A stretch of DNA of 64,000 nt. It comes from Aequorivita vladivostokensis. GTDB taxonomy: Bacteria; Bacteroidota; Bacteroidia; Flavobacteriales; Flavobacteriaceae. The stretch spans positions 248,001-312,000 of the forward strand of contig NZ_JSVU01000003.1 in the NCBI RefSeq assembly GCF_000952855.1. Direction: 5' to 3'. The notes below the pieces were generated by a model that saw nothing but the letters and a program-made list of their open reading frames with translations, did not search any database and was not told where the DNA came from. A program made the translations under genes and the position numbers. This document shows positions 1 through 21,487 of this stretch, one piece after another (positions within the stretch are counted from its first letter, which is position 1; the number at the start of each line of letters is the position of its first letter).

Positions 1-703
1 TTCCTGCTTCGGTAGCGACTATAAATTTTTCCGCAGGATGTTTTTTCACATAATCAATCATGCCCGCCGTGGAACCGATATAGGTCGCGGTCTCTAAAAT
101 ATGGCTCTCACTTTCGGGGTGCGCAATAATTTTTGAACCGGGGTGCTCTTTGTAAAGTTTCAGCAATTTATCCATCGAAAACGCTTCGTGCACAATGCAG
201 GCGCCGTCCCAAAGCAGCATTTTCCGACCGGTTTTTTTCTGAATATATTTCCCCAGATTTTTATCGGGCGCAAAGATAATTGGAACCTCCTTCGGCACGG
301 AATTCACGATTTTTTCGGCATTGGAAGAGGTGCAGATAATATCGCTCAAGGCCTTTACTTCCGCAGAACAATTCACATAGGTTATTACCACGTGGTCCGG
401 ATGCGCCTCCACCAATGTGCGGAAAGCATCGGGCGGACACGAATCTGCCAGCGAGCAGCCCGCCATCAAATCGGGCAACAACACTTTTTTGTCGGGGTTC
501 AAAATCTTTGCGGTCTCGGCCATAAAATGCACACCGGCAAAGACAATCATATCGGCATCCGTTTCCGCAGCTTTTTGCGAAAGGCCCAAACTGTCGCCCA
601 CATAATCCGCCACTTCCTGAATTTCGGGCACTTGGTAGTAGTGCGCTAGGATTACGGCGTTTTTCTGCTTTTTCAGTTCGGTTATTTTTTGATGTAAATC
701 CAT
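1..703 (-). CDS. nadA: Quinolinate synthase NadA (partial, C-terminus beyond window edge)
   Basis: Condenses iminoaspartate with dihydroxyacetone phosphate to quinolinate in NAD biosynthesis, using a [4Fe-4S] cluster. The reverse strand reads from ATG at 703 as [20 protein letters not shown] and continues open for 234 codons to the window edge. Visible family motifs are the N-terminal [28 protein letters not shown] (first cluster Cys), [32 protein letters not shown] and the HPES segment. It starts 6 bases after the stop of the NorB-like gene, so the two are probably co-transcribed. The missing part should carry the last cluster cysteine. Confidence 0.95.
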
Positions 704-709
704 CGGGAA

Positions 710-2035
710 TCAAGTTTTAATTTTTTGAAGTAATGCTTTGAAAATAGGCGTTGCAACGATCAACAGCGAAACAAAAATCCCTATTCCAAAGATGAAAAAT
801 GAAATATAGTACGGCACGATTGAATCCTGCATTTCCGCAAACGATCCTTCCTTTGAAACGTACATCCAGTAGCTGCGCTTGGCCCCGGCAATTATCAACG
901 AAACGAAAAAGATAAACAGCGAAATATTGAAAGCCACAAAGCCTCGTTTGACCCATTTGGTATCGGTCTGAAGGGTTGGCCGCACGTAATGGGCAATAAA
1001 GAAGAGGGCCGAAAATAGGATCGTCGTGTTGATACCGATCGTGGTTCCCATTGAATGCGCCACCGTAATATGGGTGCCGTGGGTAAAGAAATTGATGGCA
1101 GGAATGGAGAACAACAGCGCCAAAATAATGTTTATAAAAATCCAGAAATCGGTTGCCAGCAAAAACCGATATGCCATGGGGTGGTTTTCTTTTTCCACCT
1201 TTAAAACGGAACGTTTCCAATTGTAAATAATCGACGCCAAAACAATCCACTCAGTCATACTTATCGCATAGGCAACGTAGCGGATCCACGGCTGTGTGGG
1301 CAGTAAATAGGTGTGGTGCGCCCAGCCGAACATCAAATTGGTGAGTCCCAAAAAGTAGAAGAAAAACGCCATTTTATTGGTAGCCACGTCGGTATCCTTT
1401 TTGATTTTGGACATCAGATAAATTGAAATACCGTAAACCAGCATATTCCACGAGCCCGTAAACGAGCCGGTGGATTTCCATTGTACGGCGAAATCCTTTA
1501 TAAAATGCAACCTAAAAAAATCGAAAAGCCAAAAATGCGCCTCCATCAAATGGTAGCACATAAAGGCGATGCCCGTGCCCCACATCCAAAAATAGACGGG
1601 CCACCCTTTCATATTGGTGTAAAGCGTCTTGAAATAATTGATGCCGAAAAGTACCCAGCCCAGTAAAATCGGAATCATCAAAATGGGTTTAAAGGCGAAA
1701 TATTCGCGCCCCTCGGTATAATCGAAAGCGAAAGAGAAATAAATGGCGACGCCCGTCAACAGGAAAAGTATGAAATGCAGCGATTGTAATTTGGGCGAAA
1801 AAAGCTCAAATTTTTCAACCGAAGCGATAAAGAAATAGATGCTGCCCGTGGCTGCGAGCACGATCCACGAAGTTTGCGAAGTAACGTGAAAGGGCCGCAG
1901 TTTGGAGAAGGGAACCGTTTCCTTTAAAAAATCGGGCAAGAGGTATTGAAACGACGCGGTTAACCCAAAAAGCATCCCCAAAAACAGGGCGGTGAGCGCA
2001 AACAACAAGAAATAGAGCGGCACTTTATTCTTCAT
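710..2035 (-). CDS. Divergent NorB-like heme-copper oxidoreductase subunit I
   Basis: A 441-residue membrane protein with about 12 hydrophobic segments, related to subunit I of the heme-copper oxidase / NO reductase superfamily. Hand alignment to the canonical NorB at 9112-10461 is anchored by the low-spin heme His (H50, RPFH), an EGR motif 60 residues later, the helix VII pair H240-H241 (GWAHHTY) and helix X (HGTHITVAHSMG). Several key positions differ. The helix VI H-L-W-V-E-G motif of NorB (FeB histidine and glutamate) corresponds to T-G-S-F-T-G. In helix X the H-G-H of NorB is H327-S-M329, so one heme ligand is Met rather than His. It overlaps the NorC-like gene by 11 bases. It may be a non-canonical NO reductase or another heme-copper enzyme. 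Confidence 0.75.
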   Translation of the reverse strand: MKNKVPLYFLLFALTALFLGMLFGLTASFQYLLPDFLKETVPFSKLRPFHVTSQTSWIVLAATGSIYFFIASVEKFELFSPKLQSLHFILFLLTGVAIYFSFAFDYTEGREYFAFKPILMIPILLGWVLFGINYFKTLYTNMKGWPVYFWMWGTGIAFMCYHLMEAHFWLFDFFRLHFIKDFAVQWKSTGSFTGSWNMLVYGISIYLMSKIKKDTDVATNKMAFFFYFLGLTNLMFGWAHHTYLLPTQPWIRYVAYAISMTEWIVLASIIYNWKRSVLKVEKENHPMAYRFLLATDFWIFINIILALLFSIPAINFFTHGTHITVAHSMGTTIGINTTILFSALFFIAHYVRPTLQTDTKWVKRGFVAFNISLFIFFVSLIIAGAKRSYWMYVSKEGSFAEMQDSIVPYYISFFIFGIGIFVSLLIVATPIFKALLQKIKT

Positions 2036-2456
2036 TTCGATACTTTATTTTAACCCAGCCCGTGGCCTCAATCTCGGCGTCATAATTTGGATAAATGCCC
2101 GTTTCATCCACCTGTTTCAAGTATTCCACCAGAGCATCTTTTTCTTCTTCGGTAAAATGGAATTGCGGCATACTCTTCACGCCACTGTTCAAAAATGCCT
2201 TTATATAGTTTGGGCCTTTGCCTTCTGTAGAATACACGTTGGTTAAATCGGGGCCCAAATAACCGCCCAAACCGTACAATTGGTGACAGGACCAACAACG
2301 GTTGCTTTGGAACAGCTGCTGGCCTTTCACTGCCACTGGGGATAACTTTTCGACGGCCACGTAGCCATCGGTATTATAGATTACATAGTTATAAAAGCCG
2401 AAAAGGGCGAGCAAAATCGCCATAATACAAATATAAGGCCTTGGATTGGAGACCAT
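2025..2456 (-). CDS. NorC-like membrane-anchored cytochrome c
   Basis: Probable electron-donating subunit of the divergent NorB-like protein. From the chosen start (MVSNPRPYICIMAIL) it has 143 residues: one N-terminal membrane anchor (about residues 7-28), then a periplasmic monoheme domain with C54-W-S-C57-H58 followed by LGGYLGPDLTN, as in NorC. A longer reading begins at 2495, but a -7 element at 2479-2486 lies inside that extension, so translation from 2456 is more likely. The stop overlaps the next gene by 11 bases, giving tight coupling. The Fnr-type box at 2510-2521 lies 54 bases upstream of the start. Confidence 0.8.
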   Translation of the reverse strand: MVSNPRPYICIMAILLALFGFYNYVIYNTDGYVAVEKLSPVAVKGQQLFQSNRCWSCHQLYGLGGYLGPDLTNVYSTEGKGPNYIKAFLNSGVKSMPQFHFTEEEKDALVEYLKQVDETGIYPNYDAEIEATGWVKIKYRNEE

Positions 2457-2509
2457 TTCAATTTGAATTATTTGGGCATAAAAATACCTTTTCACTGCTG
2501 TGCGAAATA

Positions 2510-2521
2510 TGATATTTATCA
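2510..2521. promoter_or_regulatory. Fnr-type palindrome, divergent promoter
   Basis: TGATATTTATCA, a perfect TGAT-N4-ATCA palindrome. On the minus strand TATTTTTA (2486-2479) follows exactly 23 bases later, a near match to TAnnTTTG, serving the NorC-like gene. On the plus strand TAATTTCG (2545-2552) also follows 23 bases later, serving the acyl-CoA synthetase. One bound dimer could therefore activate both directions. Confidence 0.65.
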
Positions 2522-5516: not shown

Positions 5517-5750
5517 TTAAACCGCCCAAACCACAACAAGCAATAGCGTCAAAAACGCCACGAGCAGTACCTTCCAAAAAGCATTCGCCTTTTTAAGTTC
5601 CATAAAAAAGAATGCCACGCCTATAAACTTCAAAAAGGAAAGCACTAAAATGATTATTGCAACATAGGTAAAATCCAGATTGGCAAACACCGCGGAAAGC
5701 AGGGTCAGGCCAATCAAAACAAGCCAGGTGATGTTAAAAGTGCGTTCCAT
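5517..5750 (-). CDS. norF: NorF-like / cytochrome oxidase subunit IV family small membrane protein
   Basis: A 77-residue protein starting MERTFNITWLVLIGLTLLSA with three predicted membrane helices and the FMELKKANAFWK loop typical of the prokaryotic subunit IV / NorF family. The open frame extends upstream to 5942, but that part overlaps norE out of frame; the ATG at 5750 lies 2 bases after the norE stop and gives the family length. It is the last gene of the norCBQDEF operon and probably helps assembly or stability of NO reductase with NorE. The symbol rests on position and family rather than strong sequence identity. Confidence 0.75.
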   Translation of the reverse strand: MERTFNITWLVLIGLTLLSAVFANLDFTYVAIIILVLSFLKFIGVAFFFMELKKANAFWKVLLVAFLTLLLVVVWAV

Positions 5751-5752
5751 TT

Positions 5753-6337
5753 TTAAAAGAGTAAATAGATTATAGGGAATAGCAACAGCCAAATCAAATC
5801 GCACATATGCCAAAAGGCTGCACCCGATTCGTAATCGGCAATTTTGAGAGTTTGGGGTTTTTTGCTGAGGGTTCTTCCCAAAACCAGCAAAATAATGATC
5901 CCCACCACCACGTGTATTACGTGAAAAAGGGTGAGCATCCAATAATATCCAAAAAATGCATTGTAACCCACCGTTAATCCTGCTTCAATCTTATCGGCGT
6001 ATTCCACGGCTTTCAAAATCAAAAACAACATTCCGCCGAGAATGGTCAACCGAAGAAACCACTTGCTTTTGCTAAAATTCCCCAATTTCAGAAAATGCAC
6101 CGACTGCGCCATGCACCAACCGCTGCTGAGCAGAAAAACGGTATTTATAGCGCCATAAGCCGTGTTTAGCAACAGGCGGGATTCGTGAAAAAGTTCGGGC
6201 TCTGCCCTTGCATTCAGCGCCATAAAAACCAGGGCAATCCCGAAGGTTACCAATTCCAAATAAATAATAATCCACAGCAGGATGCCGCCCGGTGGGTAAA
6301 AAATGTTTTTGTAATCTATTTTGGCCGTAGTGTCCAT
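5753..6337 (-). CDS. norE: NorE, cytochrome c oxidase subunit III family protein
   Basis: A 194-residue integral membrane protein of the heme-copper oxidase subunit III family, with five hydrophobic segments. Family features are PPGGILLWIIIYLELVTFG near the N-terminus, the middle YADKIEAGLTVGYNAFFGYYW and the C-terminal FHVIHVVVGIIILL and YESGAAFWHMCDLIWLLLFP. In denitrifiers NorE supports full NO reductase activity but is not part of the purified NorCB enzyme. It begins 1 base after the norD stop and is followed by norF after 2 bases. Confidence 0.9.
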   Translation of the reverse strand: MDTTAKIDYKNIFYPPGGILLWIIIYLELVTFGIALVFMALNARAEPELFHESRLLLNTAYGAINTVFLLSSGWCMAQSVHFLKLGNFSKSKWFLRLTILGGMLFLILKAVEYADKIEAGLTVGYNAFFGYYWMLTLFHVIHVVVGIIILLVLGRTLSKKPQTLKIADYESGAAFWHMCDLIWLLLFPIIYLLF

Positions 6338-6338
6338 T

Positions 6339-8108
6339 TTAGCTTTGGTGTTTTATTTTATCGTACAGTTTTACCAGCGATTGCAGCAATTCCACGGGAG
6401 TGGTCAAAATCTGGAAATGGTTCTGCCCAAACATCTGTGGCAAGTAATATTTTGCCTGCGCTTCAATAGCCAAGGCATACGAATTGATGTTCCGCTGGTT
6501 CAATTCCCGAAGTGCTTGCTTTACATCGTTGATGCCGTATTTGCCCTCGTACTTGTCGTAATCATTGGGTTTTCCGTCAGAAATCAGGATGACCCATTTA
6601 TTTTTGGTATCGCGATTATCGAGCAAGGCTCCGGAATGCCGCAATGCCGTACCAATACGCGTATAACCACTTGGCTGCAGGGCGCCCACCTTGTTTTTTG
6701 CCTTTTGCCACGGTTCGTCAAAATCCTTTAAAGTTAGATAGGTGCTGTGGTTTCGGGTTTTTGAATAGAAACCGGCGATGGAAAAATCCACATTGAATTC
6801 CTCCAAAATTTCCCCAAAAATGATGGAGACCTGCTTTTCCACATCAATCACCCTGTTGTCTGCGGCATAGCCATCGCTGGAAAGGCTGCTGTCCAAAAGC
6901 ATCAAAATGGAAAGGTCTTTTTCCTTTTTGCGTTTTGAGAGATAGATATTTTCCGACGGCGTGTGGCCCGAATGCACGTCAACGTAAAGGTCCGTGAGCG
7001 CATCGAGATCAAATTCCTCGCCCTGCAATTGCCTGCGCTGCTGCTGGTATTTATTGTTTACCGAAGTGAGCATCTTCCGCAGCCCCATCAAAGTGGAAGC
7101 GTGCTCGCGAAGCGTATTTTTATAATAATCAAAATCGGTTTCGGTTTGCGTTTGGGGGAAAACCTTGCAGAAATCCGGTTTGTAAGTGCGTTTGGAATAA
7201 TCCCATTCGTCGTACAAAATGTGATGGCCCGAAGTTTCCAATTCGGCACTCTCCGAAATGGTGGTATTTTCAATAAACTCCGCCTGATAGATGGAATGCG
7301 TAGGGTCGTCCACCCGCACGGTCTGTTTCATATTCAAGTCCTCTAGCGCATTGGCGTGGTCGTCCAGTTCGTCATCGCCGTCAAAATCGCGCCAACCGCC
7401 CTCCCACTCTTCCGCGGTTTCGGCCTTTTCAAAATTGTGGGTAAGCACATAATCTTCCTGCGCTTTTTTGTCAACCTCAATGGATTTTATCTCTTCCACC
7501 GCATTGGCCTTCAAAATGGTGTTTATCTCTTCCTCAATGGCGGTTTTTACTTTTTCCGAAATATTCTCAAGCACCTTTTTCTTCACAGTTTCCGGGGAAT
7601 TCTCCATCCATTTCCCATAAATAAACGAATAATCGGGCGGATTTTTTTCCGAAGCATTTTCTTCAAAAAGCAATTTCAGTTCGGTATAAATGGTTTCCGT
7701 TCCCGGGAATTGGCTGAAAATCTCCTTTAAGACTTTTTCAGAATTTTCCTCGGAAATTTTCCGCGCCTCTTCCAAAGTGTGCTCCTCGCCCAATTCATAA
7801 TTTAGATGAAAACTTTTTTGGATGGAAAGATAAAGCGTCCTAAAAATGTAAAAAGCAAGATTTTTTTCCGAAGTATCAAAACCCGAAAACCGTTCGGGCA
7901 AAAAGAAGGCATTGTTCTTATAACCGCCCTCCTGCTCTGCCTCAAAAATTTCGATGGAATGGCCCGTTACGGCTCGTGCCACCAACGTAAGCCGTGGCTT
8001 TATTTCGCAAAGCTTTACGGTGTGCGCAATGGCTTCCCTCGCACTTTTTTTTCGGTGTTTTAGGAATTTGGCGACCTTCGCAAAGATAAACTCATCGGGT
8101 TCAAACAT
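6339..8108 (-). CDS. norD: NorD, von Willebrand factor A domain activation protein
   Basis: A 589-residue cytoplasmic protein required with NorQ to activate NO reductase, probably by metal (FeB) insertion. The C-terminal VWA domain (about 390-585) has the MIDAS residues in LLDSSLSS and ISDGKPNDYDKYEGKYG. The N-terminal half is helical and acidic, with a long Glu/Asp-rich linker around residues 200-260, as in NorD/CbbO-type partners of MoxR ATPases. It follows norQ by 10 bases and precedes norE by 1 base. Length is close to the NorD norm. Confidence 0.92.
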   Translation of the reverse strand: MFEPDEFIFAKVAKFLKHRKKSAREAIAHTVKLCEIKPRLTLVARAVTGHSIEIFEAEQEGGYKNNAFFLPERFSGFDTSEKNLAFYIFRTLYLSIQKSFHLNYELGEEHTLEEARKISEENSEKVLKEIFSQFPGTETIYTELKLLFEENASEKNPPDYSFIYGKWMENSPETVKKKVLENISEKVKTAIEEEINTILKANAVEEIKSIEVDKKAQEDYVLTHNFEKAETAEEWEGGWRDFDGDDELDDHANALEDLNMKQTVRVDDPTHSIYQAEFIENTTISESAELETSGHHILYDEWDYSKRTYKPDFCKVFPQTQTETDFDYYKNTLREHASTLMGLRKMLTSVNNKYQQQRRQLQGEEFDLDALTDLYVDVHSGHTPSENIYLSKRKKEKDLSILMLLDSSLSSDGYAADNRVIDVEKQVSIIFGEILEEFNVDFSIAGFYSKTRNHSTYLTLKDFDEPWQKAKNKVGALQPSGYTRIGTALRHSGALLDNRDTKNKWVILISDGKPNDYDKYEGKYGINDVKQALRELNQRNINSYALAIEAQAKYYLPQMFGQNHFQILTTPVELLQSLVKLYDKIKHQS

Positions 8109-8118
8109 GGCTTTTGGC

Positions 8119-8940
8119 TTAAATCATCAAATCGCAGAGGTCGGTGAGTGCTTGGGTAATTTCCGCGTCGTCGGTCAACGGTTCCACAATGGCTACTTTT
8201 ACGGAAAGCCGCTTCGGAAGGCCGCTGTTTATAAGCATTGCCGCGTCAACCAACAAACGGGTGGAAACGGTTTCGGTAAGCCCCAACTCGGTGAGATTGC
8301 GGATTTTATTGGCGATGTTCACCAGTTTTTTTGAAGTGTCTTTGTCCAAGCCAGTTTCAGTTGCAACGATTTCGGTTTCGTCCTTAGCGGTCGGATATTG
8401 AAACGAAAGCGCCACAAAACGCTGGCGGGTAGATGGTTTCAGCTCTTTAAAACCTTTTTGGTAGCCGGGATTGAAAGAGGCCACGAGCATAAAATCGGGA
8501 TGTGCTTTTACGGTAATGCCCAATTTGTCAATATAAAGCTCCTTTCTGTGGTCAGTTAGGGAATGTATGGCAACCACCACATCTGGGCGGGCTTCGGCAA
8601 TTTCATCCAAATAAAGAATGGCGCCCTCTTTTACGGCTGTCGTCAACGGCCCGTCCACCCAAATGGTCTCGGCGCCCTTGATAATGTAGCGCCCAATAAG
8701 GTCTGTGGAAGAGGTTTCCTCATGGCAGGAAACGGTGATGAGCGATTGCTCCAACTGATGCGCCATAAAATCCACAAACCGTGTTTTGCCAGTGCCCGTT
8801 GGTCCTTTCAGCAAAATGGGCAGTTTGTTTTTAAAAGCATGCCGAAAAACCTCAACCTCGCGGTCTATGGGTTTATAAAAGGGTATTTCCGAAGAGAATT
8901 TTAGGCTTTCCTTTATGGTGATTGTTTCTGTGATTGACAT
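8119..8940 (-). CDS. norQ: NorQ, MoxR-family AAA+ ATPase
   Basis: A 273-residue AAA+ ATPase of the NorQ/CbbQ type that works with NorD in NO reductase maturation. Walker A is LLKGPTGTGKTRF, Walker B is AILYLDEIAEA, sensor residues lie in HPDFMLVASFNPGYQ, and the arginine finger is in KPSTRQRFVAL. It is separated from norB by a 171-base gap with a potential hairpin, so its dose may differ from that of norCB. It is followed by norD after 10 bases. Confidence 0.93.
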   Translation of the reverse strand: MSITETITIKESLKFSSEIPFYKPIDREVEVFRHAFKNKLPILLKGPTGTGKTRFVDFMAHQLEQSLITVSCHEETSSTDLIGRYIIKGAETIWVDGPLTTAVKEGAILYLDEIAEARPDVVVAIHSLTDHRKELYIDKLGITVKAHPDFMLVASFNPGYQKGFKELKPSTRQRFVALSFQYPTAKDETEIVATETGLDKDTSKKLVNIANKIRNLTELGLTETVSTRLLVDAAMLINSGLPKRLSVKVAIVEPLTDDAEITQALTDLCDLMI

Positions 8941-9002
8941 AATTCAAGATTTTTAGTGTCGTTTCAACTGTACCGAAATTGTACAGCGGAAAACTATTAT
9001 TA

Positions 9003-9072
9003 AAAGGCCCGAAACATAGTTCTGGTCGGGAATGACTTAAAACTGTTTTATATGAAAATATTCCCGGGCTTT
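9003..9072 (-). terminator. Hairpin between norB and norQ (attenuator or partial terminator)
   Basis: CGGGCTTT (9065-9072) and AAAGGCCCG (9003-9011) pair with one bulge. On the transcribed strand the second arm is followed by TTTTAATAATAG. The loop is long (53 bases), so termination is probably partial. Confidence 0.35.
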
Positions 9073-9111
9073 CAGGTATAAGAGCGTAACCAGCTTCAGG
9101 CCTTTATAGAA

Positions 9112-10461
9112 TTAGAGATAGCTACTTTCCACGGTTTCCAGGGCTTCATCCGTGGGGCGTCCGTGCTTGTAAAAATCATAGATATAGGTTAGGACCCCAA
9201 TGGCGAACAGACTGGCGCAGAGTATAAGCACCACAAAGTGAATGCTGATTTCCTTTTGGACGGCCATAAATTCCATTCCGAATTTTCGTTCCAAATAAAC
9301 CTGCGCAACGCCAGCGACACCAAAGGCCATCGTCATCCCGATCATTCCAATATTTGTGGTCCAAAAAGCCACACGCCCGCGAACGCCGTCGTAAAATTTA
9401 CGTCCCGTCATATTGGGCAGGCTGTAGCTTATAATTGCCAAAACAATCATCGCGTACGCACCCCAAAATGCCAAGTGGCCGTGCATTGCGGTAACCAAGG
9501 TGCCGTGGGTGTAAAGGTTGGTTTGCGGCAAAGTGTGCGCAAAACCTAAAAGACCGGCCCCCACAAAGGAAACAATGGCAGCGCCGAGCGTCCAAAACAA
9601 AGCAATCTTGTTTGGGTGCTTTTTTTCTCCCTTTCGGTACATATTTACCGCGAAAAGTGCCATAGCAAGGAAGGCCAAAGGCTCCAGGGCAGAGAAAATG
9701 CCACCAACGATGAGCCAGATTTTATTCACACCAATATAATAGTAGTGGTGGCCCGTGCCCAGTACGCCGGAAAGAAAAGTAAGACCTACGATTACATACA
9801 GCCATTTTTCAATAACCTCGCGGTCCACGCCTGTTAACTTTATTAAAAGGAAGGCGAGGATACCGCCCATAATGAGTTCCCACACGCCTTCAACCCAAAG
9901 GTGCACTACCCACCAGCGAAAAAAGCTGTCGGTTACCTGACTGTCAAAGGGGAACATTCCGGGAATGTACAGCAGCGCCGCAAACAGCAGCCCCATGCTA
10001 AGCACCAATGCCGTCGTGGTTTTTCGTTTTCCTTTAAAGAGCGTCAAAAGTATGAGTGCCAAAAACAGCAGTACGTTTAAAACTACCAAATAGTCAAGCT
10101 GGTGTGGAATTTCCAAAAATTTACGGCCTTCCCACCAGTTAAAGTGATAGCCGACAATGGCTGCAACGCCAACCGCTGCAAGCGAAATGAGCTGTACATA
10201 CGCCAGTTTCACGCTAACGAGTTCGCGTTGGGCCTCTTCGGGAATAATGTAATAGGCAGCGCCCATAAACCCGGAGAGCAACCAGACCACAAGCAAATTG
10301 GTATGGACGGCGCGCGCGGTGTTAAAGGGAATAAAGTCGTGTAGACCGTCCATCCCGATACGGGCAAAACCCATAACAAAGCCATAGGTTATTTGAAGTA
10401 CCAGTAAAAGCATGGAAAGTGCAAAAAACCAGTACGCTACTTTTTGAGATTTATATTTCAT
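9112..10461 (-). CDS. norB: Nitric oxide reductase catalytic subunit NorB (cNOR)
   Basis: Reduces two NO to N2O in the cytoplasmic membrane. From ATG at 10461 (MKYKSQKVAYWFFA) it has 449 residues and 12 membrane helices; the frame stays open to 10536 but that extension overlaps norC. All canonical ligands are visible: RAVHTNLLVVW (heme b), VVHLWVEGVWELIMG (FeB His and both conserved Glu), LGTGHHYYYIG (FeB His pair) and THGTLVTAMHGHLAFWGAYA (heme b3 and heme b His). It starts 22 bases after the norC stop. This is a standard cytochrome-c-dependent NorB and a useful reference for the divergent copy at 710-2035. Confidence 0.97.
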   Translation of the reverse strand: MKYKSQKVAYWFFALSMLLLVLQITYGFVMGFARIGMDGLHDFIPFNTARAVHTNLLVVWLLSGFMGAAYYIIPEEAQRELVSVKLAYVQLISLAAVGVAAIVGYHFNWWEGRKFLEIPHQLDYLVVLNVLLFLALILLTLFKGKRKTTTALVLSMGLLFAALLYIPGMFPFDSQVTDSFFRWWVVHLWVEGVWELIMGGILAFLLIKLTGVDREVIEKWLYVIVGLTFLSGVLGTGHHYYYIGVNKIWLIVGGIFSALEPLAFLAMALFAVNMYRKGEKKHPNKIALFWTLGAAIVSFVGAGLLGFAHTLPQTNLYTHGTLVTAMHGHLAFWGAYAMIVLAIISYSLPNMTGRKFYDGVRGRVAFWTTNIGMIGMTMAFGVAGVAQVYLERKFGMEFMAVQKEISIHFVVLILCASLFAIGVLTYIYDFYKHGRPTDEALETVESSYL

Positions 10462-10483
10462 CGGTATAAAATTTAATTGGTGG

Positions 10484-10930
10484 TTAGTTGTTGGTGAGTT
10501 GCTTGTCTTTTGCCAGCGGCGAAACAATGCGGTCAAAACCGTTTAGGTCTATCTCGCCTATCCAGTTAAAAAAGGCGATAACGTCCATGGCCTCTTCCTC
10601 GGAAAAACCGTAGGCTACCATTTTTCGCTCGTTGGGAGCCCAGGGTACGGGCGTCATAAGAACGGCTTTTACGTAGCCTTCGCCACGGCGTTCAATTACT
10701 TTTGTGAGTTCCGGCGCATAATAGGCGCCCTCGCCCAGAATGGTGTGGCAGCCCATACAGTTGTTCTCTTCCCAGATTACCTTACCGCGCACCACTTGGG
10801 CGGTAATGTTTTCATAATTGGTTTGGTCCTGGCCGTCGCTGAAGGAATAGATGGTAAGGCCAATAAAGATCAGAAAGGTTACGAGTGTTCCCCCAAGGAA
10901 AAATGCCCGTGCTTGTTGTTTGGATAGCAT
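10484..10930 (-). CDS. norC: Nitric oxide reductase cytochrome c subunit NorC
   Basis: A 148-residue membrane-anchored monoheme cytochrome c that feeds electrons to NorB. One N-terminal helix (about 10-30) anchors it; the heme site is C58-M-G-C61-H62, followed by TILGEGAYYAPELTKV as in NorC. The downstream VPWAPNERKMVAYGFSEEE segment is also typical. It is the first gene of norCBQDEF. An Fnr-type palindrome lies at 11008-11019 with a -7 element between it and the gene, so induction by low oxygen or NO is likely. Confidence 0.96.
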   Translation of the reverse strand: MLSKQQARAFFLGGTLVTFLIFIGLTIYSFSDGQDQTNYENITAQVVRGKVIWEENNCMGCHTILGEGAYYAPELTKVIERRGEGYVKAVLMTPVPWAPNERKMVAYGFSEEEAMDVIAFFNWIGEIDLNGFDRIVSPLAKDKQLTNN

Positions 10931-12083: not shown

Positions 12084-13886
12084 TTACCCAACCTGCAACT
12101 GCAATTCCTGCAACTGCAAAATCTCCTTTTTGGCATCGGCTAAATCCTTTTCAAATTGGGCTTTATTGTCTAAAATATAATTTGCCACCAAGTCATAATA
12201 ATGCGCAATCCCATCGAGAAGGTTTTCACTGAATTTTTCCCAAGTTTTGAAATCGCGGGCAGTTGGCGCTAAGGTGTGCTTCATTTCCTTCTTTAAAAAA
12301 TCTATATAAAGCCTTAACTCGGCAACAAACATTAAAGGTCTGTTGGGGTGTTGCATTATATTTTGGCGACCGTAAATATGATCAGTCATCTCGCGCAGAC
12401 TGGCAACCTTTGAGAAATTGACGATATTCGGCCCCGGGCAAATGGTTACCGCCGTAAGCTTTTTTAGAAAGGACACTTCATACCGAATAGCCGCCGCATT
12501 GCTCAGGCCGATGCACAGACATTCTTTGCCCAACACCTCTTCGCGCTGCAGCTCCAGTTCTTCCTCGGAAAGATTTAAGGTTTCCAATTGCTCCAATTTC
12601 ATCTTTTGGTACTTGCTCGACGCGGTACATATCGGCTCTTTGGTAAACTCGGTATTGGATACCAATAGTTTTTCGGTACACGGACTGCCAGGCTTTTCCT
12701 TTGCTATACGTTCCAAACGTTCCTTTTCGGCGGTGGTTCCCTTTAAATAATTGAACTGTACCCCCAAAGGCGACGCATTGCTCCGAACTACATCCCTTTC
12801 TTTCGACTGGCGGAGCAACTCCAACGTATCCTCATCAACCGTAGTAGCCTCAGGGCATAACAGAAAGGGCGTGCCCCAACCCGTGCCGTCCACTTGGTAG
12901 TAATTGCGCAGCAAGTTATCTTCCTCACTGGTGCCAATACCGCCCTGTACCGTAATTTTTATGGGATGCGGTTCATAAAAGGTAAGTTTTCCCTTGGCCG
13001 TGAGTGCAGGATTGTAAAGCTCAAAAAGGCTTTCCCGCAATTCCTGTCTTTTCTTTTTAAATTCCTGGAGAATCGGCCCCATCAATAGGCCCTGGGTGGC
13101 AAAAACGTGGCCACCGCAATTAAGTCCGGATTCAATGCGAAACTCACTGACCCAGATTCCCTTTTTCGCCAAATATTTCCCCTGTATCAGCGCCGAACGG
13201 TAATCGCTTACCTTGATCACCACCTTTTTGTGAAAACAGCCCCATTCATAGGCATCAAAGGCCGAAAAATTTTCCATATAATTATAAAGTCGCGGGTTCA
13301 TTCCCGCAGAAAAAATAAGGGACGAGTTGGTAAGTTCGCTCTTGGCGTAACCTTTTAGGGCGGTCAGCGCATCCGATCCGTTTTCAATTATATCCTTGTT
13401 TTTGTCCAAATTCTCTTTATCTACCTTGGTCATAATATTCACTTCCACCGCTCCCGGCACCACCAGTTTTAGCAGCAATTTTTCCAATAATCCCTTCTTT
13501 TCGGGATTGAGGGTAAAAAGCCATTCGTTATACTTTTCCTTTAGCAGGCTTGTATCGGGAAGCATTTCGAAATATTTTACAAGATCCGATCCCGCTTCAA
13601 ATGTGGAGGCCTTCAACTGTTCCATTTTTGAAGTGACGATGCGCTGCATCAGGTTTAGGTAATCGGTTATACGCCTGGCTCTGTAATCCTCCTCTTTTAC
13701 GGTAATGGGAACGTATGGTTCGTTATTTTGGCCATAGTAATATTTCCGCATTACTTCCAAAATGTTATCCTCAATAACCGAAATGGCCGAGTTGATGCCA
13801 AAACAGGCAACTTTTATTGGGGAATCAATGGTGTAGGCAATGCCCATGACGGGAATGTGAAAGGTATGCGGACTGGTAATTTGCAT
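12084..13886 (-). CDS. Large nitronate-monooxygenase-like (FMN TIM-barrel) protein, function unknown
   Basis: A 600-residue cytoplasmic protein from ATG at 13886 (MQITSPHTFHIPVMGIAYTI). I do not recognise the exact family. It carries the marks of nitronate monooxygenases / 2-nitropropane dioxygenases: IWVSEFRIESGLNCGGH (about 244-260, like the flavin-binding E-x-EAGGH segment), QGGIGTS (about 314-320) and VDGTGWGTPFLLCPEA (about 332-347, like ADGVQMGTRFLATPEA). It is nearly twice the usual length, with a helical insert (about 60-170) and a Cys-bearing C-terminal part. The longer frame to 13952 would run through the Fnr-type box, so the shorter start is preferred. The box and the position between nor and nos suggest a role in nitrogen-oxide metabolism or stress. 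Confidence 0.55.
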   Translation of the reverse strand: MQITSPHTFHIPVMGIAYTIDSPIKVACFGINSAISVIEDNILEVMRKYYYGQNNEPYVPITVKEEDYRARRITDYLNLMQRIVTSKMEQLKASTFEAGSDLVKYFEMLPDTSLLKEKYNEWLFTLNPEKKGLLEKLLLKLVVPGAVEVNIMTKVDKENLDKNKDIIENGSDALTALKGYAKSELTNSSLIFSAGMNPRLYNYMENFSAFDAYEWGCFHKKVVIKVSDYRSALIQGKYLAKKGIWVSEFRIESGLNCGGHVFATQGLLMGPILQEFKKKRQELRESLFELYNPALTAKGKLTFYEPHPIKITVQGGIGTSEEDNLLRNYYQVDGTGWGTPFLLCPEATTVDEDTLELLRQSKERDVVRSNASPLGVQFNYLKGTTAEKERLERIAKEKPGSPCTEKLLVSNTEFTKEPICTASSKYQKMKLEQLETLNLSEEELELQREEVLGKECLCIGLSNAAAIRYEVSFLKKLTAVTICPGPNIVNFSKVASLREMTDHIYGRQNIMQHPNRPLMFVAELRLYIDFLKKEMKHTLAPTARDFKTWEKFSENLLDGIAHYYDLVANYILDNKAQFEKDLADAKKEILQLQELQLQVG

Positions 13887-13946
13887 TTGAGAATGGATTT
13901 GGATTGAAAATTTGGTAAAGATGATTAATCCAAAATTGCCATAGTA

Positions 13947-13958
13947 TGACAAAAATCA
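13947..13958 (-). promoter_or_regulatory. Fnr-type box upstream of the NMO-like gene
   Basis: TGACAAAAATCA, 61 bases before the ATG at 13886. Twenty-three bases downstream the -7 position reads CATCTTTA, a weaker match to TAnnTTTG than at the other sites. Confidence 0.5.
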
Positions 13959-14061: not shown

Positions 14062-14844
14062 TTAAAAATCCTTCCGCTTCGCAATGCGCCAAATAAAGAA
14101 GGTTGGCACTACTACCCAAACAATTAGCATCGCAAAGGAAAGCAACAGTCCAAAACTGGTGCCGAAGAATTTTTGGAATACCGCACCGGTATAGCCCAAT
14201 AATGCCGAAATGTCGAGTTTTAAAAGTATCAAAACCCGCGACAGATCTACTGGGTTCAGCATGGTTGCGATGAGTGAAAACTTATCCAGCGGATAATCCT
14301 CAAAATATAAAAGCGACATCAAAAAGATACCGTCATAAATTACGGCCATGAACAACCAAAGCAGAATGGCATAGCCAAAACCTTTGATTTTGTTTTCATT
14401 GGAAAGAGCTATAACGAAAGCCAGTGCGGTGAAAATAAAGGTTAGAAATCCGCCTGTAACTAGCAGAAGTGTAAAATCCCAGATGGCATTGCTGTTAAAA
14501 ATTCCATAGAAAACAAAAGGGAGGCCCAAACCAATTACCAAGCTCATCGCCAACGAGGTGGCGACTCCAAAATATTGCCCCAAAAAGATGGAGCTCCGTT
14601 TTACGGGCTGTGCCAAGAGCAGCTCCGTAAATTCGCGGGAATTGTAATAATACATCACCCCGAAAATAGTGCCGATTAACGGTACCAAAATAATGATTAC
14701 GTTCATCAGAGTTATCACCGCTTTTGAGAGGTCATTGTTCAAAAACAAGAGCACCACGCCCAGCAGTAAATAGAACAGAAAATATACGTAGCTCCAGCGG
14801 CTTCGCATTAAATCGTAAAAACTGTATTTTAGTATCTTAAGCAT
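14062..14844 (-). CDS. nosY: NosY, ABC transporter permease for nitrous oxide reductase maturation
   Basis: A 260-residue membrane protein with six predicted helices. The segments YNSREFTELLLAQPVKRSSIFLG and ALSNENKIKGFGYAILLWL are typical of NosY. With NosF it forms the ABC complex that energises sulfur/copper supply, through NosD and NosL, for the CuZ cluster of NosZ. Its start overlaps the nosF stop by 8 bases, and a strong terminator follows. Confidence 0.93.
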   Translation of the reverse strand: MLKILKYSFYDLMRSRWSYVYFLFYLLLGVVLLFLNNDLSKAVITLMNVIIILVPLIGTIFGVMYYYNSREFTELLLAQPVKRSSIFLGQYFGVATSLAMSLVIGLGLPFVFYGIFNSNAIWDFTLLLVTGGFLTFIFTALAFVIALSNENKIKGFGYAILLWLFMAVIYDGIFLMSLLYFEDYPLDKFSLIATMLNPVDLSRVLILLKLDISALLGYTGAVFQKFFGTSFGLLLSFAMLIVWVVVPTFFIWRIAKRKDF

Positions 14845-15547
14845 AACTTGAGGATAAAATGGAGGCTATGGCGTGTTCAAAATCGGGCTGTTCGGTCTTG
14901 GTTTTCAGTTCCGTAATGGTTCCCTTAAAGTAGATTTTTCCTTCCAAAAGAAAAACTATCTCGTCGGCAATTTCTTCCACAAAACTCAAAATGTGCGAGG
15001 TAACCAAAATGGTTTTTCCCTTTTCCCTTTCCGAAAAAATCAAGTTCTTCAACCGCAGATGCGAGATGGGATCGAGGCCGCTCGTTGGTTCATCGAGAAT
15101 TATCAGAGGACTGTCAAACATAAACGTAAGCACCAAATTCACTTTCTGTTTTGTGCCGCCCGAAAGGTTTGCCAATTTTTTATTGAGAAAGGGTTGCAAC
15201 TTGAAAAGCTCAATCAACTCTTCATCCTTGGTAGCTTTTGAATCGCGCAGATCCTTGATCATCGCGATAAGCTCATTCACTTTCAGGTTGCCGGGGAAAT
15301 TGGCTATTTGCGGTAAATAGTCAATTTCATTTCGGTATTTGAAATTGTTTTTCAACGGTTTTCCATCTACGGAAATCGCTCCGGAATCTGGCAGTACCAT
15401 TCCCAAAATACATTTGATGAGGGTGGTCTTTCCCGAGCCGTTTGGCCCCAGGACAGAGAAAATTCCACCACGCTCAATATTGAGGTCTATGCCCTTGAGC
15501 ACTTCGTTCTTGCCAAATTTTTTATGTAAATCCTTAACTTCTATCAT
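14837..15547 (-). CDS. nosF: NosF, ABC ATPase for nitrous oxide reductase maturation
   Basis: A 236-residue ATP-binding subunit partnering NosY. Walker A is VLGPNGSGKTTLI, the signature is ANLSGGTKQKVNL, and Walker B with D-loop is PLIILDEPTSGLDP; the switch His lies in TILVTSHILSFVEE. Its start overlaps nosD by 14 bases and its end overlaps nosY by 8, so the three are translationally coupled. Confidence 0.95.
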   Translation of the reverse strand: MIEVKDLHKKFGKNEVLKGIDLNIERGGIFSVLGPNGSGKTTLIKCILGMVLPDSGAISVDGKPLKNNFKYRNEIDYLPQIANFPGNLKVNELIAMIKDLRDSKATKDEELIELFKLQPFLNKKLANLSGGTKQKVNLVLTFMFDSPLIILDEPTSGLDPISHLRLKNLIFSEREKGKTILVTSHILSFVEEIADEIVFLLEGKIYFKGTITELKTKTEQPDFEHAIASILSSSYA

Positions 15548-16808
15548 GTTTTATGGGCTTCATTTTTGGGTTTTCATCCACCAAATTATCGGGCGTGAAA
15601 ACGGGGGAAACTTTTTCTGAAAAATCAATAATGTCTATAAAAAGGCTTCGCAATAGAATGATGGTTTCCGGAGTACGGTTAACAATATAGTAAAACAGTT
15701 TTACGGGACGGTAAGGCACATCGCCAATTCCGTCCTTATTAAGGTCGTAACCCGTATAATTGCTCCAATAATTATTGTCGAACTCATTGTCGTTTATATT
15801 GCTATTATAGGAAATATCGAAAGAGTTGTAAAGAAAGTTGTTCTCTTTAAAGGAATTGGCATAACAAGCACCACGCACCTTTATGGCCCAACCGTTGCTT
15901 ATAAAATCGTTGTTGTGATAGGTTACCCTGTTGCTGCCCTCAAGATTGATACCTACGGTATTTTCCTTAAAAACATTGTTGGAGATAGTGGCATCGTTTA
16001 TTTCTTTTAGCAAAAGACCGAATGCTGCGGTGCCCCAGTTCTCCTTAAAGACGTTGTTCTTCATTTCTATAAACTTCGAAAACATCACGGCCACGCCCGC
16101 TCCATTGTTCTCAAAAGTATTGTACTCGTAAATATCGTTGTTGCTGAACATAAAGTGCAGCCCATATCGCAGGTTGTTCCGACTGAGATTGTGGCTGATT
16201 CTTATATTGTCTGAAAATTCCAAATAAATTCCGTCGCGGACGTTCTGCACGTCGTTACCGCGCACCTCAACGTCATTGCAATACCAAAGCTGGATGCCGT
16301 TGCCGGAATTGTATTCGTTAATGGCATCACCTTTTATGGTGTTGTTTAACACTTTTCCGTTGTTGGACCTTTCGAGATAAATTCCGAAGAAAAGTTTCTC
16401 GAGCTGAAGATTTTGGATGAGATACCCATTCTTTTTAATTACGCGAATGGCGGCGTAATCTGAAGTGTAGCTGGTGCCGACATTTATAATTTTGAAACCG
16501 TCCACCGTAACGTTGTCGGCCACTATCTTAATGATTTCACCTTTGTCCTCTCCGTCGATGGTTGGCAGGTTTTCGCCGAGTAGAATAATGCTTTTGTCCA
16601 CTATAATATTTACTTCCTTGTAAATTCCCTTTTTCACCAAAACGGTGTCGCCATCTGAGGCTTGGTTTATACCTTCCTGAATTGTTTTAGCCTCACAGGT
16701 ACTGCAAACGGTTATGGTCTTGCCCATAGCGGCAGCGGTTGCAAAAAGCAAAATAACCAGCGTAAATATGTGAAGTGTTTTTTTCAAAATAGTTTCAAAA
16801 TTTGGCAA
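15534..16808 (-). CDS. nosD: NosD, periplasmic right-handed beta-helix copper/sulfur processing protein
   Basis: A 424-residue exported protein with an N-terminal signal segment (about residues 8-30, HIFTLVILLFATAAAMG). The body is a run of parallel beta-helix repeats with many NN turns, e.g. GIYLEFSDNIRISHNLSRNN and YGLHFMFSNNDIYEYN, as in NosD (CASH/PbH1 family). It is needed for CuZ assembly and interacts with the NosFY transporter and NosL. The terminal YRPVKLFYYIVNRTPETIIL is typical of the family. Confidence 0.95.
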   Translation of the reverse strand: MPNFETILKKTLHIFTLVILLFATAAAMGKTITVCSTCEAKTIQEGINQASDGDTVLVKKGIYKEVNIIVDKSIILLGENLPTIDGEDKGEIIKIVADNVTVDGFKIINVGTSYTSDYAAIRVIKKNGYLIQNLQLEKLFFGIYLERSNNGKVLNNTIKGDAINEYNSGNGIQLWYCNDVEVRGNDVQNVRDGIYLEFSDNIRISHNLSRNNLRYGLHFMFSNNDIYEYNTFENNGAGVAVMFSKFIEMKNNVFKENWGTAAFGLLLKEINDATISNNVFKENTVGINLEGSNRVTYHNNDFISNGWAIKVRGACYANSFKENNFLYNSFDISYNSNINDNEFDNNYWSNYTGYDLNKDGIGDVPYRPVKLFYYIVNRTPETIILLRSLFIDIIDFSEKVSPVFTPDNLVDENPKMKPIKHDRS

Positions 16809-16921
16809 TACCGGAGCATTTGCCGTGAACGGGTTTTATAAAAATAACGGAAGATACTGAATTTAAAGGAAACGGAACAAGTTGAAAAAAGTTCCGCGCA
16901 ATAGACGGACTGTTAGATTCC

Positions 16922-16962
16922 AGCAAGTTTCTTCGGGGAATCAAGTTTTGAAGAAACTCGCT
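16922..16962. other. Hairpin between nosL and nosD
   Basis: AGCAAGTTTCTTC (16922-16934) pairs with GAAGAAACTCGCT (16950-16962) with one mismatch and a 15-base loop. There is no U-run after it, so it looks more like an mRNA-stability or partial-termination hairpin inside the operon. Confidence 0.45.
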
Positions 16963-16984
16963 GACATCCTAACTTTACTAATTG

Positions 16985-17422
16985 TTATTGCTTTAAGTGA
17001 ATTTGGATTTCTTCCCAAGAGAAAAGTTCTCCCGTGAATTTTTCCTGTGCTTTTTGTCCAGAATTTTCATTTTCAAAAGCCGAAAGGTTCGCACCCATCG
17101 GGCTCGCAATCTGATCGCTCACAAGGTAGGAAGCCATTGTGGCGTCCATCAATTGTCCGGGTTGGTTGAAATCTGCAACCAGATACAGTGCCATTTCGGT
17201 GTCTTTCATCTCATCCTGTAAGGAATGGACCATACACTCTATGGCGTCATATTTATAGGCCTTGCCTTTTGTGGTTACCAACTGAGCGGAATGTTGCCTA
17301 TCCACGATTGTCATATTACAGTAATGGCAGGCATCTGTTCCGTACTCTATCTGTTGCGGGCTTATATTGCACGAAACCAAGATTGAAGAAAAGATTATAC
17401 CCAAGAAAATGAAATATTTCAT
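16985..17422 (-). CDS. nosL: NosL, copper-binding lipoprotein
   Basis: A 145-residue lipoprotein (signal peptide ending LVSC17-like lipobox, ...SSILVSCNISPQQ). The conserved NosL motif is present as YGTDACHYCNMTIVDRQHSA (C-x2-C-x-M), with AYKYDAIECMVH downstream. NosL delivers Cu(I) to apo-NosZ for CuZ assembly. It lies between the 203-residue membrane protein and nosD in the nos operon. Confidence 0.93.
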   Translation of the reverse strand: MKYFIFLGIIFSSILVSCNISPQQIEYGTDACHYCNMTIVDRQHSAQLVTTKGKAYKYDAIECMVHSLQDEMKDTEMALYLVADFNQPGQLMDATMASYLVSDQIASPMGANLSAFENENSGQKAQEKFTGELFSWEEIQIHLKQ

Positions 17423-17449
17423 AATACTATTGTTTTAGTGCTGAATTTT

Positions 17450-18061
17450 TTAAGCTTTTTTATATTCCTTTTTTCCAACAAAAAAGGCTACTACGGTAAG
17501 CATCATTCCCGCAAAGATCATATAGGCACCTGTTCCTGGCCACGAATCCACATCAAAATTCAGCATTTTTTGATACCCTAATAAGGGTGGTTTGTAGGTC
17601 ATTGGTGTGCCATCGGGATTCAAAAGTTTCATGATTGCTTTTGGATCTAGATCGGTTCCGTATTCCAAAAGCCATTGGTTAAAATCGTACATTCCTAAAA
17701 TGCCCAATACAGACATTAAAACGAACCAGCCAAGGAACCATTTATAACTGATTTTTCCGAAGAAACCCAGTATTCCTATAATTACACCCAGAGCGACCAT
17801 CGCGCCTATTACGATAGGAAAGACTTCAAATTCCCACATATCCTCTGCTTTTGGGATGGTCTTCATTCCGATATAATGGTTTAGGCCATCAATGTTCTGA
17901 ATGTCAAATTCCTTTACACCTTCTATTCCTTCAATATAAATATCCATTCCCAGCGGTTCGGGATATTGGGGGGCGCCCAGCATAATATTCCACAATGGAA
18001 ATTTAAAGAGACCCAATAGCAGCAAGGAGCCAATTATCATTATTATTCCTGCTTTTTTCAT
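17450..18061 (-). CDS. Conserved membrane protein of nos operon, function unknown
   Basis: A 203-residue protein with about four hydrophobic segments (near 4-26, 82-102, 106-127 and 181-199) and a soluble periplasmic-facing loop (about 27-80) containing GMDIYIEGIEGVKEF. A second loop has NPDGTPMTYKPPLLGYQKML. I recognise it only as the kind of protein found between nosZ and nosL in Bacteroidota nos operons. It has no Cys-rich or heme motif. A role in electron delivery or NosZ assembly is an inference from position. Confidence 0.6.
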   Translation of the reverse strand: MKKAGIIMIIGSLLLLGLFKFPLWNIMLGAPQYPEPLGMDIYIEGIEGVKEFDIQNIDGLNHYIGMKTIPKAEDMWEFEVFPIVIGAMVALGVIIGILGFFGKISYKWFLGWFVLMSVLGILGMYDFNQWLLEYGTDLDPKAIMKLLNPDGTPMTYKPPLLGYQKMLNFDVDSWPGTGAYMIFAGMMLTVVAFFVGKKEYKKA

Positions 18062-18183
18062 TTTTTTGAATTTTAAATCTTAAACGTCCGTGCGGTTGGT
18101 TTTTCGGTTTAAGCATTTGTGCAGATAGTGCGATGCTGATTTTATATTGAATGGAAGTAAGACTGCTTCGTCAATTTTTTTTA

Positions 18184-18215
18184 AAAGACGGGGGAAATCA
18201 ACAACCCCCGTCTTT
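18184..18215. terminator. Hairpin downstream of nosZ
   Basis: AAAGACGGGGG (18184-18194) and CCCCCGTCTTT (18205-18215) form a perfect 11-base stem with a 10-base loop, 58 bases after the nosZ stop on the transcribed strand. It probably lowers read-through from nosZ into the maturation genes, giving more NosZ than accessory proteins. Confidence 0.7.
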
Positions 18216-18272
18216 CCTTTGAAAATACTATCAATCACTAATCTAGTATTTCCACAACTAAAAACTTCTTAA

Positions 18273-20240: not shown

Positions 20241-20274
20241 TTTTCTATTGTTTTAATTTAAGTTTTTCGATTGT

Positions 20275-20853
20275 TTAGTTTGCAGGCAAGATTACCTTAT
20301 CAACTACGTGTATAATTCCGTTACCGGCGGGCACGCTCGCTATAATCTTAGCGCCTCCCACATATACGTCATCTCCTTTTGTCTCCACGGTTACGTCCTG
20401 ACCTCCAGCTTGCCCCAATTTTTTAAACTTTTTCAAAAAGTCTTTGGAGTAGTTGCCTGGCGTAACGTGATTTTTCAAGATAGCGGCAAGTTGATCCTTA
20501 TTTTCAGGCTTAAGCAAATTCTCAACAGTTCCCGCAGGAAGTGCCTCAAAAGCAGCATTTGTAGGTGCAAAGACCATTAACGGACCTGCGTTTACCAAAG
20601 CATTTTCCAAGTTGGCTGCCTGTACCGCTGCCACAAGTGTGGTGTGGTCTGGAGAGTCAATGGCTATCTGAAGAATATTGGGCGTAGATTCATCATCTTC
20701 TATAAAGGCCTGACCTTGTCGTTCAGAAGTGGAATTGGCAGTTGCGGAATTTTCTACAACGGTTGCATCCCCTTCGGTTTTAGTTTCGTTTTTGCAAGCT
20801 GAAAACACGAGCATTGCAGCTGAAACAAATAGCAGTTTAATTGTTGTTTTCAT
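20275..20853 (-). CDS. Fasciclin-domain lipoprotein in nos operon
   Basis: A 192-residue lipoprotein (MKTTIKLLFVSAAMLVFSAC) with one fasciclin (FAS1) domain at about 60-190: TLVAAVQAANLENALVNAG, MVFAPTNAAFEALPAGTVENLL and the C-terminal GNGIIHVVDKVILP are diagnostic. FAS1 domains mediate adhesion or protein-protein contact; here the gene lies 34 bases upstream of nosZ. It may bind or stabilise periplasmic NosZ or a copper partner, but this is inference from context. Confidence 0.85.
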   Translation of the reverse strand: MKTTIKLLFVSAAMLVFSACKNETKTEGDATVVENSATANSTSERQGQAFIEDDESTPNILQIAIDSPDHTTLVAAVQAANLENALVNAGPLMVFAPTNAAFEALPAGTVENLLKPENKDQLAAILKNHVTPGNYSKDFLKKFKKLGQAGGQDVTVETKGDDVYVGGAKIIASVPAGNGIIHVVDKVILPAN

Positions 20854-20871
20854 TTTGATCTTGGTTTTTAA

Positions 20872-20900
20872 CCCTTGCAGGACCGTAAGCCCTGCAAGGG
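20872..20900. terminator. Perfect hairpin between cytochrome c and fasciclin genes
   Basis: CCCTTGCAGG (20872-20881) and CCTGCAAGGG (20891-20900) form a 10-base perfect stem with a 9-base loop. On the transcribed strand it is followed by TTAAAAACC, so it could be a weak terminator or a processing site that sets different mRNA levels. Confidence 0.5.
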
Positions 20901-20923
20901 GGTCGGTTGTTTAAGTATATATA

Positions 20924-21433: not shown

Positions 21434-21487
21434 AGTTGTTTGAATTAATTTATGGGACAAAATTACCATTCAGATGACAGATAGAAT

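Follow-up and report, generated by a model that had tools for sequence, protein, structure and literature searches.

The pairing of a heme with a second metal is the hallmark of a large superfamily of respiratory enzymes, the heme-copper proteins, which includes the cbb3 oxidases and the nitric oxide (NO) reductases (NOR). In the sections of PMC3413370 devoted to these enzymes, the superfamily signature is a histidine sextet, in which two residues bind the low-spin heme, one binds the high-spin heme and three hold FeB or CuB. The same sections assign the quinol site of qNOR to His328 and Asp746, and describe NOD as a qNOR-like protein in which a FeB His is replaced by Asn and a Glu by Gln. Other divergent members, sNOR, gNOR and eNOR, have a second subunit predicted to be a cupredoxin, according to the passages of PMC8756737 on subunit composition. 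Within NOR, Arg57, Glu135 and Glu138 are conserved and a calcium lies between the hemes (PMC3431322, in part). In qNOR, changing the Glu located four residues after the FeB-ligand Glu, and fully conserved in all NORs, yields an inactive monomer in which FeB was not modelled (PMC7201271, in part).

A widespread and maintained family in which the fold, hemes and electron path of these enzymes are retained but the second metal site is dropped would test the need for that metal in NO chemistry. Here, we describe a candidate for such a family, starting from a window of 64,000 nucleotides of the Aequorivita vladivostokensis genome (contig NZ_JSVU01000003.1, positions 248,001 to 312,000). It consists of a NorB-like protein (hereafter NorB′) and a NorC-like cytochrome (NorC′), and no recognisable description of such a pair was found in the openly licensed literature. 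The pair may reveal a new electron or NO-handling step in consumers of the greenhouse gas N2O; because it resembles NOR and cbb3 subunits, it could also be miscounted as NO reductase in surveys.

The locus and its genomic surroundings

NorB′ matches the Pfam family COX1 (E 5.1e-30) and NorC′ matches Cytochrom_C; their genes overlap by 11 bases (Table 1). The initial annotation had placed a NorC-like cytochrome and nadA next to norB′, and both are indeed adjacent in the window. This nadA is the sole copy in the 3.27-Mb source genome, which rules out that it is an NO-induced spare. The closest named locus among the best 80 of 531 relatives is that of Aequorivita todarodis, whose NorB′ is 99% identical. 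A canonical nor cluster, whose NorE matches Pfam COX3, lies in the same window; the names NorE and NorF are partly tentative. In the nos cluster, nosF and nosY are named by position and have general ABC-transporter matches only.

Table 1. Positions of the features discussed (window coordinates unless another contig is named)
Feature	Position	Strand	Remarks
nadA	2..703	-	truncated at the window edge; lies downstream of norB′ at a distance of 6 bases; nadB is next, outside the window
norB′	710..2035	-	NorB-like membrane protein of 441 aa; one low-spin-heme His and the His and Glu ligands of FeB are missing
norC′	2025..2495	-	NorC-like mono-heme cytochrome c, membrane-anchored
Crp/Fnr-like palindrome TGATATTTATCA	2510..2521	.	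upstream of norC′
NorB′ His50	1886..1888	-	first low-spin-heme ligand, kept; aligned to H60
NorB′ helix VI, K187-N197	1445..1477	-	invariant K187 and G190; T189 and T193 at the positions of the lost FeB His and Glu; N197 for the E215-type Glu
NorB′ His240-His241	1313..1318	-	helix VII pair, kept
NorB′ His327-Ser-Met329	1049..1057	-	His ligand of heme b3 retained; Met in place of the second low-spin-heme His
norC-norB-norQ-norD-norE-norF	5517..10930	-	canonical cluster; its NorB has all FeB ligands
622-aa protein gene	12084..13952	-	
nos cluster	14062..21469	-	cytochrome c, fasciclin-domain gene, clade II (Sec-type) nosZ, 203-aa gene, nosL, nosD, nosF, nosY
203-aa gene	17450..18061	-	directly after nosZ
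nirK	G000:C3 228268..229734 (L132:168..1634)	+	Cu nitrite reductase
HCO6 gene	G000:C3 240557..241771 (L132:12457..13671)	-	404-aa membrane protein
qNOR-type gene (771 aa), matching part	G383:C1 537226..538530 (L131)	+	divergent to the norB′ below
norB′ of the same contig	G383:C1 534610..535896	-	about 1.3 kb from the qNOR-type gene

Several features of the surroundings deserve mention in their own right. On the source contig (G000:C3), a single island at about 228-270 kb, covering the adjoining locus L132 and window positions 1-22000, gathers nirK, cbb3, RIC, hemerythrin, globin, Rrf2 and nadBA genes with norC′B′, the nor cluster and the clade II nos cluster. The C-terminal residues 387-472 of the 488-residue NirK match the cbb3 CcoP cytochrome model (E 1.2e-6). 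The 203-aa gene has neither a Pfam nor an NCBIfam match and is present in 39 of the 40 nosZ regions examined, while the 622-aa protein, with no Pfam match at E 0.1, is found near nor, nos or norB′ loci in 16/80. HCO6, encoded near RIC and nos genes, carries an N-terminal HAHSHTALLGW motif; it belongs to no Pfam or NCBIfam family and has no PDB relative better than E 0.066.

The locus had also been proposed to lie under an Fnr-type box. The Crp/Fnr-like palindrome TGAYnnnnRTCA is present upstream of norC′ in 37 of 79 homologous regions (one of the 80 loci having no upstream sequence), against 1.9 expected from mononucleotide shuffles. In contrast, the stricter TTGAnnnnnnTCAA occurs in 1/79 against 0.9 expected and is not enriched, so that the proposal is supported in its broader Crp/Fnr-like form. 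In 24 of the 37 box-bearing loci, the palindrome sits 50-66 bases before the predicted start, and in five Aequorivita rows it sits at -27 relative to the GTG start. Because of this spacing, the GTG at 2495 is probably 13 codons too early, and norC′ probably starts at the ATG at 2456 (codon 14).

Heme and metal ligands

To compare ligand positions, 39 proteins (25 NorB′, 10 cNOR, 2 qNOR-type and 2 CcoN) were aligned with L-INS-i. Canonical ligands and the glutamates E211, E215 and E280 are given in Pseudomonas aeruginosa numbering. In this alignment, H60, H258, H259 and H347 of the P. aeruginosa protein correspond to H50, H240, H241 and H327 of NorB′, while H349 faces M329 and H207 faces G190. 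Among the acidic residues, E211 has no partner (its ungapped counterpart is T193), E215 aligns with N197, E280 with E262 and E135 with E111. Four of the six histidines of the signature described in PMC3413370 are thus kept, and one FeB His and one low-spin-heme His are lost.

Conservation was followed in 81 rows, namely the window and the best 80 of 531 related loci. Residues H50, H240, H241, K187, E165, G190, N197 and E262 are present in 81/81. H327 and M329 are each present in 80/81, the sole exception being L044 (8001-9324), a frameshifted row from a metagenome-assembled genome (MAG) that could be an assembly error. The initial annotation had read TGSFTG (residues 189-194), HSM (327-329) and the HH pair (240-241), and had deduced that the active-site Glu and two His, the third one of FeB and one of heme b, seem to be missing; these readings are correct, and the losses extend through the family. 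Its alignment had put Thr in the place of the FeB His. The His is absent, but the residue aligned with it is the invariant G190, next to T189. Counted over the family, position 189 is Y in 51 rows, T in 14, G in 14 and V in 2, and position 193 is V in 54, T in 23, A in 3 and I in 1. No His or Glu occupies the helix VI ligand positions in any NorB′ row. The four most distant rows (L004, L005, L006 and L008) keep H50, HH, H327 and M329, with N, N, Y and A, respectively, at position 189. The HLMEAH segment had been named as a possible source of shifted ligands: its E165 is invariant, and its H162 is absent from these four rows.

On the cytochrome side, NorC′ keeps C67, C70, H71 and M109 (CxxCH plus Met) in 80/80. 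Because of this conserved pattern of ligands in both subunits, the electron path from heme c to heme b and on to heme b3 appears to be kept, with an FeB site that has no helix VI ligands. The low-spin heme is probably His/Met-ligated, by His50 and Met329. R47 and E111 of NorB′ match Arg57 and Glu135, in the numbering given in PMC3431322, in 81/81 rows, and position 114 varies; the canonical NorB of the window has a Lys at the Glu135 position. N197 would occupy the position of the qNOR Glu whose change is reported in PMC7201271 to inactivate the enzyme. A heme-free predicted model gives NorB′ the fold of heme-copper oxidase/NOR subunit I, the HH segment (239-246) being the only stretch with a pLDDT below 50, an observation that is given no weight here. 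Neither the HH pair nor E262 varies in any of the 81 rows, which suggests continued use of the distal pocket.

Distribution and gene company

The family is represented by 531 related stretches in a one-genome-per-species collection, and the best 80 all come from records named Bacteroidota, except for one MAG named Chlorobiota. NorB′ was found in 8/395 genomes of an even phylum sample and in 10/199 of an even family sample, both of which contain the window's genome; G000, G296 and G367 are common to both. The idea that NorB′ is a pseudogene in progress, a cNOR duplicate that loses its catalytic ligands beside an intact norB, can be dismissed as next to impossible, given the 531 relatives, the grouping apart from cNOR, the invariant new residues and a dN/dS of 0.036-0.072 in the 7/10 comparisons that are not saturated, which indicates purifying selection. 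The tree likewise rules out a recent origin of NorB′ by degeneration of a copy of the canonical norB in the window.

NorC′ adjoins NorB′ in 80/80 loci. Within 8 kb of NorB′, where the contig allows, the 80 loci contain nadA (47), nadB (45), Rrf2 (33), RIC (30), norQ/D/E/F (27), HCO6 (26), Crp/Fnr-like regulators (18), norB (18) and nrdD/G (16), counts that are not independent because related species share gene order. In 17/80 loci, none of the tested NO or anaerobic markers is present within 8 kb. The norC′B′ pair directly follows nor genes in 12/80 (L033-L036, L038-L041, L045, L046, L050 and L055), and nadA is the immediately next gene in 22/77. NadA and NrdD are NO-sensitive enzymes. nadA is only one of several recurrent neighbours, and the closest tie at the genome level is with nosZ.

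This tie was examined in 56 carrier genomes, comprising 50 of the best 80 loci, chosen to spread over lineages, and 6 of the 8 carriers of the phylum sample; some of them are incomplete MAGs, and in one step the scoring was limited to four candidates per genome. nosZ was found in 48 of the 56, NOR (here of cNOR/qNOR type) in 30 and nirK in 19. cNOR accounts for 28 of the 30 NOR carriers; four have a qNOR-type gene, two of them together with cNOR and one NOD-like. The sole NOR gene of G383 is the NOD-like one, and that of G603 is of qNOR type. Among the 26 carriers with no cNOR/qNOR match, 22 have nosZ, four have neither NOR nor nosZ, and only one has nirK, so that NO production by NirK is not to be expected in most of them. 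A role as an accessory of cNOR only is weakened by these 26 genomes.

In the even samples, nosZ is present in 129/395 and 90/199 genomes overall versus 8/8 and 10/10 NorB′ carriers (hypergeometric 1.1e-4 for the phylum and 2.7e-4 for the family, uncorrected for kinship). Leaving out the window's genome gives 7/7 and 9/9 (3.4e-4 and 5.9e-4, again uncorrected for kinship). Conversely, only 8 of the 129 nosZ genomes of the phylum sample have a NorB′ match and 121 have none, so that N2O reduction as such does not require it. In 16/48 genomes, nosZ and NorB′ lie on one contig within 30 kb, contigs being taken as the same when their lengths are equal, and in 32 they lie on different contigs. The island of several Flavobacterium-type genomes runs, in order, nosZ, the 203-aa gene, (nosL), nosDFY, globin, nadAB, RIC, nrdDG and NorB′C′, after which come variable numbers of OsmC, fasciclin and HCO6 genes.

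The nosZ regions of 20 carriers were compared with those of 20 of the 121 non-carriers, a comparison that is not independent because 7/20 carrier regions are Flavobacterium-like. The nos core is alike in both sets (cytochrome c 20 vs 18, nosL 17 vs 16). Genes more frequent with NorB′ are nadB (6 vs 1), norB (5 vs 0), nrdD (6 vs 0, both types) and globin (10 vs 1), while RIC is equal (9 and 9) and Rrf2 (7 vs 13) and HCO6 (4 vs 7) are not higher. The hypothesis of a dedicated NosZ donor is thereby weakened, as the nos core and its own cytochrome c are unchanged without NorB′, for which most nosZ genomes of the phylum sample have no match. Judging from its genomic context, NorC′B′ is part of the NO/N2O respiration and anoxic lifestyle of its carriers.

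Possible functions of the pair

Since the pair is NOR-like without the second metal site and travels with N2O-respiration genes, it probably handles NO or electrons in a new way. Our preferred reading, with a probability of roughly 0.4, is that a single heme b3, supplied with electrons by cytochrome c, handles NO. The sequence strongly supports a path in which electrons enter at the His/Met heme c of NorC′ and pass through the low-spin heme b (His50 and probably Met329) to heme b3, with His327 as its proximal ligand. Likewise strongly supported is a dismantled FeB site: an invariant Gly stands opposite the His position, the ligand Glu is lost and the E215-type Glu has become an invariant Asn. 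Both distal His and the E280-type Glu remain. Heme b3 without FeB could then serve as a single NO-binding heme, and the complex would remove, slowly reduce or buffer NO with electrons from periplasmic cytochrome c. Under Crp/Fnr-type control, it might be made together with nor, nos, RIC, nadAB or nrdDG products and keep NO-sensitive enzymes working in denitrifying or N2O-respiring cells, including N2O reducers with no cNOR/qNOR match. NO handling is preferred on two grounds: the constraint on both distal His and on the E280-type Glu is complete, and many of the neighbouring genes have to do with NO. Against it stand the loss of two Glu residues that are catalytically critical in NOR, the 17/80 marker-free loci, the nosZ regions in which RIC, Rrf2 and HCO6 are no more frequent with NorB′ than without, the single nirK among the 26 carriers with no cNOR/qNOR match and the 4/56 carriers with neither NOR nor nosZ.

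A pure electron relay, in which a helix VII His would ligate the former heme b3 and the complex would connect the quinone pool, or a different electron donor, with the periplasmic cytochromes feeding NosZ, cNOR or cbb3, ranks close behind NO handling as a possible though less favoured account. It fits the retention of all c and b heme ligands (with Met for one low-spin His) next to a lost catalytic metal site, as well as the regularity of nosZ as companion (48/56, 8/8 and 10/10; within 30 kb on one contig in 16/48). Yet the nos operon core comes with its own cytochrome c whether NorB′ is there or not (20/20 and 18/20), NorB′ has no match in 121/129 of the nosZ genomes in the phylum sample, and the quinol-site residues His328 and Asp746, as given in the qNOR part of PMC3413370, align with F29 and F413 of NorB′, in a weak alignment (E 0.13).

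That NorC′B′ is instead a genuine NO reductase whose second metal site has been rebuilt, with a non-heme metal held by His240, His241 and a shifted ligand such as E165, E262 or H162, seems unlikely. The invariance of HH, E165 and E262 and the 26/56 carriers with no cNOR/qNOR match would agree with such an enzyme, but H162 is absent in distant rows, no row has a helix VI His or Glu at the ligand positions, and the E215-type Glu, whose replacement inactivated qNOR and left FeB unmodelled in the experiments of PMC7201271 that concern this residue, is Asn in 81/81 NorB′ rows. Less probable still is a part without turnover, as an NO or redox sensor or as an assembly or regulatory partner of cNOR: the catalytic ligands are lost and regulators adjoin part of the loci (Rrf2 33/80, Crp-like 18/80), but 26/56 carriers have no cNOR/qNOR match to assist, and neither NorB′ nor NorC′ has a signalling domain.

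Comparison with known systems

A profile of 71 NorB′ members (the fragments L007 and L009 being excluded) retrieves cNOR NorB first among PDB sequences (E 9e-28) and cbb3 CcoN second (2.5e-14). In an unrooted tree with long branches flagged, cNOR and qNOR together split from NorB′ at 100/99. Matches on plasmids comprise 163 records, and the 30 listed have 22-25% identity and are annotated as cbb3 subunit I or unannotated.

NorC′B′ shares with cNOR (NorCB) the fold, the NorC-type heme c partner (adjacent in 80/80), the equivalents of H50, HH and H327, the E280-type Glu and the THGT motif. It differs in that NorB′ does not have the set of three FeB His plus active-site Glu that defines cNOR, has no equivalents of E211 and E215, carries Met for the second low-spin-heme His and falls outside the cNOR tree group. 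Unlike cbb3 CcoN, NorB′ has no helix VI metal His (G190 stands opposite) and has Met for a heme b His; its partner is NorC′ rather than CcoO/CcoP, and it scores 36.5 bits against the CcoN family TIGR00780, whose cut-off is 583. Compared with qNOR, it is short (441 aa), with a separate NorC′, no fused N-terminal domain and lost FeB ligands.

NOD, as outlined in PMC3413370, is also a NOR-like protein with a changed FeB ligand and a changed Glu, but NorB′ is short, has a NorC partner, and carries Gly in place of the helix VI His as well as a Met at the low-spin heme. A separate observation concerns G383, where a 771-aa qNOR-type gene with HN for HH in helix VII and Gln for the helix VIII Glu, as in putative NO dismutases, is divergent to norB′ (Table 1). 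Like sNOR, gNOR and eNOR, NorB′ is a divergent NOR-like member of the superfamily; since NorC′ is a heme c protein and not a cupredoxin of the kind predicted in PMC8756737, the pair is none of these three, as far as the subunit description there extends.

The initial annotation had held that the applicable NOR family could not be told; this is now mostly answered, as the pair is neither sNOR, gNOR or eNOR nor NOD and lies outside the cNOR+qNOR tree group. A tentative extension, which we regard as rather doubtful, is that it forms a third branch of the cbb3/NOR lineage in N2O-respiring Bacteroidota, with a single heme b3 and a metal-free distal pocket (the invariant Gly opposite the FeB His position and the invariant Lys187 one helical turn before), that would turn over NO or pass electrons towards NosZ by a mechanism new to heme-copper proteins. 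Strongly supported by the alignments and the tree, within the families compared, is that NorC′-NorB′ constitutes a distinct family in the cNOR/cbb3 branch of the heme-copper superfamily, in which the binuclear centre appears to have been given up.
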